Below are positions 2,709 through 8,398 of a stretch of DNA of 27,220 bases, piece by piece; the first letter of the stretch is position 1, and every line of letters starts with the position of its first letter. Below the pieces are notes generated by a model. The model searched no databases. It was not told where the DNA came from and was given only the letters and a program-made list of their open reading frames with translations. The position numbers and the translations under genes are program-made. Source of the stretch: a virus; IMG/VR virus record IMGVR_UViG_3300030116_002175, positions 1 through 27,220 of that record; one strand, 5' to 3'.

Positions 2709-2961
2709 AACATTAGCTGAAAAAGCTAAAAAAGCTAGAGCAAAAGGTAAAAAGGTTACGGCTGGACAATTACGTCAAGTCTACAACAAAGGTCTCGCCG
2801 CTTATAAAACTGGACACCGTCCTGGAACAACACCAAATCAATGGGCAATGGCTCGTGTAAACTCTGTGCTAACTGGAGGTAAAGCGGCGAAAGTTGATGC
2901 TCATATATTTGGTAAAGGTAAAAAACCAAAGAAAAAACCAACGGCTAAGAAAAAAGGTTAA
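2689..2961 (+). CDS. Small basic protein with NQWAMARVNSVLTGG motif, 90 aa
   Basis: A GTG start at 2689 is chosen because AAGAGGAGG (2674-2682) lies just upstream at good spacing and no ATG is available nearby. About 27% of residues are Lys/Arg. The core reads QLRQVYNKGLAAYKTGHRPG then NQWAMARVNSVLTGGKAAKV, between a lysine-rich N-terminus and a lysine-rich tail. I recall this 'QLR.VYNRGLAAW ... QWAMARV ... TGG' block from small proteins of marine phages and algal viruses (possibly Pfam DUF5824, unverified). Function is not known. The compact core with flexible basic tails suggests nucleic acid or capsid contact. Confidence 0.7.
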   Translation: MSANVSKTLAEKAKKARAKGKKVTAGQLRQVYNKGLAAYKTGHRPGTTPNQWAMARVNSVLTGGKAAKVDAHIFGKGKKPKKKPTAKKKG

Positions 2962-3635
2962 TGTCTTATTTAATAAGCAATATACCCTTCTTTAAATGTT
3001 GGGTACGCAAAGAATTTACGCATAATCATGAAAAATATAGAGGTGAGTTTATACATGCTCATGCGTTTGCTGTAACTACGATGCCAGATAGAACACTTGG
3101 TTTTCAAGTTGTGTTTACTGGTTGTGAGGTTGACGGTACTGATGAAACAAATATACACGGTGGAGCAATGTGGGCTAGAATGCCTTTGACTGCATTAGTA
3201 GCCGACATACCATTAGATACCATGCCTGACATTATGCACCCACGCTTTGCTCAGCCTTGGGACTGTAGTTCTCATCACCATAGTGTAGTAAAATTAGACT
3301 ATGTGAGTGTAAGTCCATGGATATGTAAAATAGATAATAGGTTGCATATCGGTAAATATTTATTTACAATAGATTACAGTCAGTCTGATTTAGCAGATGA
3401 TCCAGCTCAGCATAAGCAGAGTCATGTCATTCAGTTAATAAAGGCTGATAATTGGACTGGTAACATTGTTGCCTTGCCAAATAACAGGGTTAGAGTAACT
3501 TCCCCTGCACTCTGGGAAACTGGAGAGGGAGCTCCCGATTTTAAACCGAGTCAATGGACTCATAACGCAGAGGAACATGAACAATATATGGATCCCGAAG
3601 TAACCTTCAACAATCTTTATAAGGAGAATAAGTAA
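2961..3635 (+). CDS. Conserved hypothetical phage protein, 224 aa
   Basis: Its ATG overlaps the preceding TAA by one base and its TAA overlaps the next ATG. The protein is rich in His, Trp and Cys for a phage structural protein. It contains ISNIPFFKCWVRKEF, FIHAHAFAVTTMPDR, a central SSHHHSVVKLDYVSVSPWIC and a C-terminal HNAEEHEQYMDPE. No membrane segment is seen, and I recognise no catalytic family. The histidine clusters could bind metal. Its place between the basic-protein chain and the head-tail genes, in a fully coupled operon, suggests a virion or assembly role. I think similar proteins exist in uncultured marine phages, all without assigned function. Confidence 0.6.
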   Translation: MSYLISNIPFFKCWVRKEFTHNHEKYRGEFIHAHAFAVTTMPDRTLGFQVVFTGCEVDGTDETNIHGGAMWARMPLTALVADIPLDTMPDIMHPRFAQPWDCSSHHHSVVKLDYVSVSPWICKIDNRLHIGKYLFTIDYSQSDLADDPAQHKQSHVIQLIKADNWTGNIVALPNNRVRVTSPALWETGEGAPDFKPSQWTHNAEEHEQYMDPEVTFNNLYKENK

Positions 3636-6928: not shown

Positions 6929-8398
6929 ATGGCGAACATTACTGGTTGGGGTAGAGGCACATGGGGTGAAGGAGCTTGGAACGCTCCTTTAGCCGTTGAA
7001 GTTACTGGTGTTGCAGGAACTACAGCACTAGGTAATGAAGTAGCTTTTGCAAACATTACTGTTGTTGAAACTGGTTTAGCTGGAACTTCAGCATTAGGAA
7101 ATACAGTTGAGACGGGAACTGCTAAAGTCACTCCAACTGGAGTTGCTGGTACTTCAGCACTAGGCAACGAAGTTTCTTTTACAAATGTTGTTGTAGTTGA
7201 AACTGGACTTCAAGGAACAACTGCATTAGGTAATGTTGTTCTAGACGGCAATGCTGTTGCAGTTGTGACGGGAGTCGCTGGAACTGGTGCAGTAGGAAAC
7301 ACAACCGAAACTGGTACTGGCGTCATTTCTGTTACTAATGTAGCTGGAACAACTGCATTAGGTACTGCTCAAGCCTTTCCAGAATTTGTTGTAGATGTGA
7401 CAAATGTCGCTGGCACTGGTGCAGTGGGAAATGTTTCTATATCTGGAACGTGTTCTTTTTCCGTTACTGGTGTTGCAGGGACTACTGCGTTAGGTGAAGA
7501 GGGAACATCGGCTGGCTCTCTAGTTGTAGAGACTGGACTGTCTGCAACTGGTTCTATAGGAACTGTAACTATCCTTCCATCAATAGAAGTCGTACCAACT
7601 GGTGCATCAAGCACTGGTGCTATTGGTGATGCTCTTGGGGCTGGAGGAGCACAAGTTGTTGAAGATGGATTAACTGGCACTGTTAATATTGGTGATGAAG
7701 CTGTTAGTGGTGGAGCAACTGTTTCTGTAACTGGTGTGACTGGCACTGGTGGTATTGATACAGACTCAACATTAGTTACATTTATTGTTACAGTCGTAGG
7801 TGGTAATCCTTCTAACCACCCTTACTATAATCAAGGTTCAACAAACAAGTATGCTATTGGTGGTAGCACAGCCACTGCTGATGTAGTCCTGACATTAATA
7901 GAGGGCAGAACTTATAGGTTTGATCAATCAGATAGTACAAATAGTGGTCATCCTATAGCTATTTATGAAGATGCTGATAAAACAACACAATACACAAGTG
8001 GTGTAACTACAAACGGAACTGCTGGAACTGCTGGAGCTTATACTGAAATAACAGTGCCAATAGGTGCTCCAACATTGTTTTATCAATGCACTAATCATGC
8101 TCTCATGGGAGCACAACTTAATACTGAAAGTGCCACTGGTACTGTCGTGACGGGAACATGTACTTTTGCTACGACTGGGGTTTCAGGCACAACAACACTA
8201 GGAGAGGAAACAGTTGATTTAACTTTACTTGTTTCAGTTTCAAGTGTTTCTGCATTAAATCAGATTGGAACACTTGCCATAATACCTGAATCTGTGGTAT
8301 CTTTAACGGGAGTTAGTGCTACTGGTGGTACTGGCGAGGAATTGATCTACAGTTTAATCGTTCCTAATCAAACAGCTAATTGGCAAGAGGTGGCATAA
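6929..8398 (+). CDS. Fibre protein of 22-residue repeats with an inserted cupredoxin-like domain, 489 aa
   Basis: The N-terminus GWGRGTWGEGAWN (6-18) is followed by twelve repeats of the type TGVAGTTALG at residues 26, 48, 70, 92, 114, 136, 158, 180, 202, 224, 246 and 268, a perfect 22-residue period. Residues about 286-400 are a different domain: HPYYNQGSTNKYAI, then YRFDQSDSTNSGHP and LFYQCTNHALMG. Its His341, Cys387, His390 and Met393 reproduce the type-1 copper ligand set of cupredoxins (His ... Cys-x2-His-x2-Met). Three more repeats follow at 416, 438 and 460. The protein is probably a trimeric beta fibre on the tail. Copper binding is inferred, not shown. The Shine-Dalgarno is weak (AAAAGG). 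Confidence 0.75.
   Translation: MANITGWGRGTWGEGAWNAPLAVEVTGVAGTTALGNEVAFANITVVETGLAGTSALGNTVETGTAKVTPTGVAGTSALGNEVSFTNVVVVETGLQGTTALGNVVLDGNAVAVVTGVAGTGAVGNTTETGTGVISVTNVAGTTALGTAQAFPEFVVDVTNVAGTGAVGNVSISGTCSFSVTGVAGTTALGEEGTSAGSLVVETGLSATGSIGTVTILPSIEVVPTGASSTGAIGDALGAGGAQVVEDGLTGTVNIGDEAVSGGATVSVTGVTGTGGIDTDSTLVTFIVTVVGGNPSNHPYYNQGSTNKYAIGGSTATADVVLTLIEGRTYRFDQSDSTNSGHPIAIYEDADKTTQYTSGVTTNGTAGTAGAYTEITVPIGAPTLFYQCTNHALMGAQLNTESATGTVVTGTCTFATTGVSGTTTLGEETVDLTLLVSVSSVSALNQIGTLAIIPESVVSLTGVSATGGTGEELIYSLIVPNQTANWQEVA
7004..7759 (+). repeat. Twelve 66-bp coding repeats (22-aa period)
   Basis: Each unit encodes TG(V/L)xGTxx(L/V/I)G at the same register for twelve units. Units 1-2 and 3-4 are also similar as pairs (NEVAFANITVVE against NEVSFTNVVVVE), which suggests an earlier 132-bp duplication. 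Later units diverge (TGASSTGAIG, DGLTGTVNIG). The repeats are coding, not a CRISPR array. Confidence 0.9.
8174..8335 (+). repeat. Three further 66-bp coding repeats after the inserted domain
   Basis: TGVSGTTTLG, SSVSALNQIG and TGVSATGGTG occur at residues 416, 438 and 460 of the fibre, again 22 residues apart. They resume the repeat family after the cupredoxin-like domain. Confidence 0.8.

Follow-up and report, generated by a model that had tools for sequence, protein, structure and literature searches.

A cupredoxin-like domain with a near-invariant predicted metal site in a fibre-like protein of a tailed phage

Could a phage fibre display a copper protein? The question is raised by a 27,220-nucleotide stretch of viral DNA (positions 1 to 27,220 of IMG/VR record IMGVR_UViG_3300030116_002175, whose full length is 51,249 bases; hereafter the window), in which an open reading frame on the + strand (6929-8398) translates to a fibre-like virion protein of 489 aa. 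PHROG profile comparison matched residues 279-432 of this product to the tail fibre protein family phrog_30742 (E = 1.4e-30). Its neighbours encode a PF25209 capsid protein, SU10 adaptors and virion proteins (Pfam), with a phrog_19943 virion protein downstream, and the fibre ORF therefore belongs to the structural genes of a tailed phage. For the next large virion protein, the best matches come from Roseobacter phage CRP-811, pelagiphages and methylophages. Twelve repeats of 22 residues (7004-7783, + strand), recognised by the exact spacing of a core such as TGVAGTTALG at residues 26, 48 and onward to 268, form a shaft; Tandem Repeats Finder did not find the 22-residue unit as a DNA-level array and returned two short rows with a period of 9. 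The array is broken at residues 286-400 by the domain that concerns us here (7784-8128, + strand), beyond which the translation again reads as repeat-like (8129-8395, + strand; for example TGVSGTTTLG). A sequence-only reading had described a type-1 copper motif in a domain inserted in the fibre, and the insertion is borne out by this arrangement. Elsewhere in the window, the product of 2961-3635 has a match to the 'ferredoxin' family phrog_3704 (E = 1.3e-31), but its four Cys are scattered, without a CxxC, and Pfam gives no match, so the PHROG name looks doubtful.

Alignment, structural model and codon position agree on four predicted ligands, all encoded on the + strand: His341 (7949-7951), Cys387 (8087-8089), His390 (8096-8098) and Met393 (8105-8107), exactly the residues first pointed out. 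His, Cys and Met are scarce in the whole fibre (3, 3 and 2, respectively); the ligands make up two-thirds of its His, and Met393 is its sole Met apart from the start. The pattern H-x(25-60)-C-x2-H-x2-M is present in 1 of the 49 window ORFs of at least 80 aa, and when the whole six-frame ORF set was shuffled 200 times, it arose somewhere in 6; it arose in none of 2000 shuffles of the fibre sequence, and on that count pure chance was rejected as the origin of the motif. By itself the motif is only suggestive, and it is conservation among the homologues that lifts it above chance. The ligand set had been equated with that of plastocyanin. Set and order are indeed those of cupredoxins, but the spacing of the loop is C-x2-H-x2-M, which we take to be that of amicyanin, and not the C-x2-H-x4-M of plastocyanin that is seen in one of the loci collected here (L278). 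Another His, His297 (7817-7819), lies in the NHPY motif of an N-terminal extension; it is conserved in 85/85 aligned rows of the subfamily of the window domain and is absent from the short form of the domain. An iron-binding fibre of the HxH type was also considered and rejected, as the protein contains three His, at 297, 341 and 390, and no HxH motif.

A first AlphaFold model, based on an alignment of 30 viral homologues, had a pLDDT of 77.3; a model from 71 diverse sequences had a pLDDT of 85.8 and a pTM of 0.81, with block means of 89-97 from domain residue 31 onward. Its strands (43-47, 58-61, 74-77, 86-90, 98-102 and 109-114 by DSSP) match the cupredoxin order, and the ligands are placed as in cupredoxins: the first His (H56 in domain numbering) stands just before strand 58-61, the Cys (C102) is the final residue of strand 98-102, and the second His (H105) and the Met (M108) are in the following loop, ahead of the last strand. 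Foldseek against the PDB put the cupredoxin AcoP, plastocyanin, amicyanin and short-loop azurins in the top ranks (best E = 2.3e-3), with Ig-like domains mixed into the list from rank 14, and the first model gave a similar list. VIA-align returned rusticyanin as the best match (Z score of 8.5, rmsd of 2.5 and 94 aligned) and a nitrite reductase domain with a Z score of 8.1, and all 50 rows among the matches listed were cupredoxin-fold proteins, judged by title. Because a Z score near 8 is only moderate, the cupredoxin assignment rests on the agreement of three lines, namely fold, ligands and profiles. At the level of prediction, then, the cupredoxin Greek-key sandwich presumed by the sequence-only reading is recovered.

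The third of these lines came in steps. Neither the fibre nor the domain matched any Pfam family at E = 1, PF00127 included, and the window domain matched no Ig-type family. Among the 30 homologues of alignment A1, a single one matched PF00127 (E = 0.058) and a few weakly matched Ig-type families (E = 0.098 or worse). A PDB sequence search with the fibre gave no match, a PDB profile search with A1 gave 14 weak matches with pseudoazurin as the single cupredoxin (E = 0.34), and a first genome-contig scan with A1 gave eight pattern matches and no relative. The viral alignment A2, compared by hhalign with an alignment of Prochlorococcus and Flavobacteriaceae proteins (A4), matched at 95.8% (E = 7.1e-9) with the ligands in register; A4 matched an alignment of plastocyanin-like and pseudoazurin-like proteins (A3) at 98.0%, and members of both A3 and A4 exceed the PF00127 cut-off. 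Direct comparison of A1 or A2 with A3 was weak (33% and 49%), and the domain is linked to PF00127 only stepwise, via A4. Two proteins from Prochlorococcus genomes G002 and G001 (L285 and L292, respectively), both 148-aa PF00127 members with HPFYIKT ... YYYVCSPHASFGM, are distinct from plastocyanin and provide the nearest cellular link to the domain of the phage.

How well is the site kept? Across 71 sequences from viruses, bacteria and archaea, with 35-85% identity to the window domain, invariance is confined to the columns H56, C102, H105, M108 and G109, and an alignment of 79 sequences has the same five; in a set of 15 very diverse copies the invariant columns number nine, and four of them are the ligands. 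All 263 assessable copies out of 266 (249 loci) carry the four ligands, the three left out being a degenerate copy (L085), a cadherin-like false match (L113) and an incomplete copy (L232). Some genome scans used patterns containing C-H-M, and the invariance in alignments A5 and A6 is partly built in. Three further scans, designed to escape this bias, used queries that end before C-H-M; their counts are not independent, as the sets share contigs and hold close relatives, and IMGVR_UViG_3300006929_001405 recurs in the homologue search and in two of these scans. With a query from phage Bellamy that ends before all four ligands, 74 of 79 assessable copies (80 loci) keep the set: 73 have the His and C-x2-H-x2-M, one (L304, scored as retaining the set) has C-x4-H-x2-M, and five are without it. 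The window query, likewise cut before all four ligands, returned 82/82 assessable copies intact (83 matches, 80 loci). One match in each of these scans ends before the ligands and was excluded (L319, one of 80, and L396, one of 83). A P-SSM2 gp9-like query, which includes the first His and so tests only C, H and M, gave 79 of 80 matches intact (79 loci). The four ligands are thus near-invariant also when the query lacks the Cys, the second His and the Met.

The six exceptions represent three lineages, in each of which the Cys and the second His are gone together. One copy (L303) has lost all four ligands, a group of four (L310, L312, L325 and L328) has lost the Cys and second His and retained the first His and Met, and another (L524) has lost both His and the Cys. 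No loss of a single ligand was found among the copies of these three sets, although a cellular relative (L295) has lost the Met alone, which runs against strict all-or-none loss. A site mostly kept whole or lost together is the pattern expected of a functional metal site. Because the ligands are kept, or mostly lost, as a set, selection seems to preserve an intact site in most copies. The explanation that the window copy is degenerate and bound metal only in the past was rejected, the ligands being intact in nearly all matches to the ligand-free queries. The sequence-only interpretation therefore survives in part: neither of the two outcomes that it named as refuting was seen, since the predicted fold is cupredoxin-like and the ligands are near-invariant, and its 'formerly redox' option is disfavoured for the window copy. 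Copper as the metal, and the roles it put forward in adsorption, in trimer stability or in binding host metal transporters, are conjectural.

Searching 50,697 phage records by tblastn gave 27 that match the domain, with Synechococcus, Prochlorococcus, Pelagibacter and Methylophilales among the hosts. In eight matching phages that were examined, the domain is mostly found in genes annotated as tail fibre or virion structural protein, and cyanophages, pelagiphages and methylophages repeatedly carry the module in tail fibres and gp9-like proteins. These eight genomes contain 17 profile matches at E = 10 or better, of which 14 keep the ligands and three do not (L260, L263 and L264). The three ligand-less copies are in giant baseplate-type proteins of S-H9-1 and Bellamy; therefore the fold does not need the site, and they constitute natural ligand-less controls. 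Relatives in BFVD include cyanophage baseplate and fibre proteins and 'beta-sandwich proteins' of Pithovirus and Marseillevirus entries.

The domain is not confined to viral records. Genome contigs yielded 118 relatives, of which 80 were kept. Twenty-four of 82 genome-contig copies are in proteins with a lipobox-like start, as recognised by a simple pattern, with the domain 7-18 residues from the C-terminus; the carriers are Marine Group II archaea, gammaproteobacteria including SAR86, and a single contig assigned to Acidimicrobiaceae. Stalks that are collagen-like or cadherin-like occur in some of these predicted lipoproteins. Among Marine Group II archaea (L126, L139, L141, L155, L158 and others), the domain tips predicted lipoproteins with collagen-like GPP/GADGADG stalks. 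Further genome-contig copies belong to giant proteins of Bacteroidetes, or lie on contigs that are probably viral. Judged from these sequences, phages and cells seem alike in using the module on an exposed stalk. In a tree built on 105 columns, in which 39 of 76 inner branches are open, the viral copies are interspersed with those from genome contigs (17 changes for the label virus). Because several of the genome-contig rows probably represent virus-derived stretches within MAGs or SAGs, we claim no direction of transfer. A copy on a Pelagibacteraceae contig (L154) is nearly identical to that of phage HTVC028P (L086), with which it shares a starred branch, and this SAR11 genome contig is probably phage sequence. 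In a record named Epulopiscium, a fish gut bacterium, the domain lies at the start of a 410-aa protein (L115); this record may be viral or a contaminant.

Taken with the model, the alignments make it likely that the domain has a functional metal site of cupredoxin type. Our main reading, to which we assign a probability of roughly 0.5, goes further: the virion would display the domain as a cupredoxin loaded with copper after release, and the domain would serve as an accessory module for attachment. It would be a mobile module, found in tail fibres and baseplate proteins of marine viruses and at the end of predicted surface lipoproteins of marine microbes. Free copper is scarce in the cytosol, in which phage fibres fold, and this scarcity counts against a fibre that is copper-loaded; on our reading the fibre would be made there without copper, and copper, the predicted metal, or a similar soft metal ion would be taken up once the virion had been released, either out of seawater or at the surface of the host. 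The loaded domain may then help the virion to stick to or dock on cell surfaces, although the range of hosts speaks against a single specific receptor.

The main alternative, which we think less likely, is that copper would have a structural part only, stiffening an exposed beta-sandwich in the fibre and making it durable, with no role in recognition. In the window fibre the domain is internal, between repeats, and its spread over phages of unrelated hosts would fit so generic a role; however, close relatives keep the domain without the site, so stability does not require it, and in cells the domain ends the stalk, which fits display over support. It is unlikely that the loaded domain acts, by analogy, as a Trojan horse that mimics a copper-delivering protein and is recognised by the copper-uptake receptors of the host. 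Azurin, itself a cupredoxin, is reported to bind the copper transporter OprC (PMC6907878), and an iron version of the idea is proposed for HxH tail fibres (PMC11705849), but the azurin-OprC complex was not seen by others (PMC8610252). Moreover, the domain spans phages of cyanobacteria, SAR11 and Methylophilales, for which a common copper receptor would be hypothetical. We consider it quite improbable that the residues bind another metal or none and instead serve an Ig-like sandwich as a protein-binding or covalent site: the Ig-like folds in the Foldseek list would allow it, but the ligand set and its order, the placement on strands and the concerted loss together predict a shared metal site, and the chain of profiles leads to PF00127. 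Electron transfer, in which copper at the surface of the host would alternate between the Cu(I) and Cu(II) states, is very hard to credit, for although the ligand set is intact and most type-1 copper proteins carry electrons, Pfam and PHROG identified no redox partner or enzyme domain beside the domain, and a fixed fibre domain would make a poor shuttle.

If the main reading is right in giving the site copper, a recurring module of cyanophages, pelagiphages and methylophages, annotated only as 'tail fibre', would be a metalloprotein, and a surface module would be common to phages and marine microbes. There would be a metal-dependent step in adsorption or virion stability that is open to testing, with the natural ligand-less copies as ready-made controls, and virus particles might carry a pool of bound copper. 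We speculate, with considerable doubt, that copper-loaded cupredoxins are displayed by marine tailed phages, and perhaps by giant viruses too, as attachment devices that exploit copper-handling molecules of the cell surface, such that virions would form a pool of strongly bound copper in seawater; by analogy, this would be the copper counterpart of the iron Trojan-horse idea. The cupredoxin fold and its site are already well known. In mainly open-access full texts, we found no paper that describes a phage tail with a cupredoxin or a copper site, which does not prove that none exists; one match concerns a viral nitrite reductase, and the available part of the paper on methylophage Melnitz makes no mention of cupredoxin or plastocyanin. 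A conserved cupredoxin with a predicted copper site, as a recurring virion module, would therefore be something not described in the open-access literature searched.

How does the domain compare with known systems? The iron-binding HxH tail fibres of T4 (gp37) and Alteromonas phage R22Y share with it a proposed metal site in a phage fibre (PMC11705849), but there the HxH motifs pair across the trimer, whereas the window fibre has none. Secreted Pseudomonas azurin is likewise an extracellular cupredoxin reported at a bacterial surface, with OprC (PMC6907878); it is, however, a free protein of the cell itself, its link to phages is only one of analogy, and the complex is disputed (PMC8610252). 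The domain matches part of each of four PHROG families (phrog_30742, phrog_677, phrog_693 and phrog_32294), which are named only as tail fibre, baseplate wedge connector or unknown, with no cupredoxin or metal in the names shown. The A4 proteins (L285-L288, L292 and L295) align with the viral domain at all four ligands in the hhalign comparison at 95.8%, but are cellular, lie above the PF00127 cut-off and include one without the Met (L295). Azurins from the Foldseek list that carry CTPHPFM or CAAHAAM loops have the same short C-x2-H-x2-M loop, which is thus workable in a cupredoxin. The PF00127 cupredoxins, such as amicyanin, plastocyanin and rusticyanin, resemble the window domain in predicted fold and in a His-Cys-His-Met set at matching strands and loop. 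They are free periplasmic electron carriers, whereas the window domain sits in a phage fibre and bears an N-terminal extension with a subfamily-specific His in its NHPY motif.
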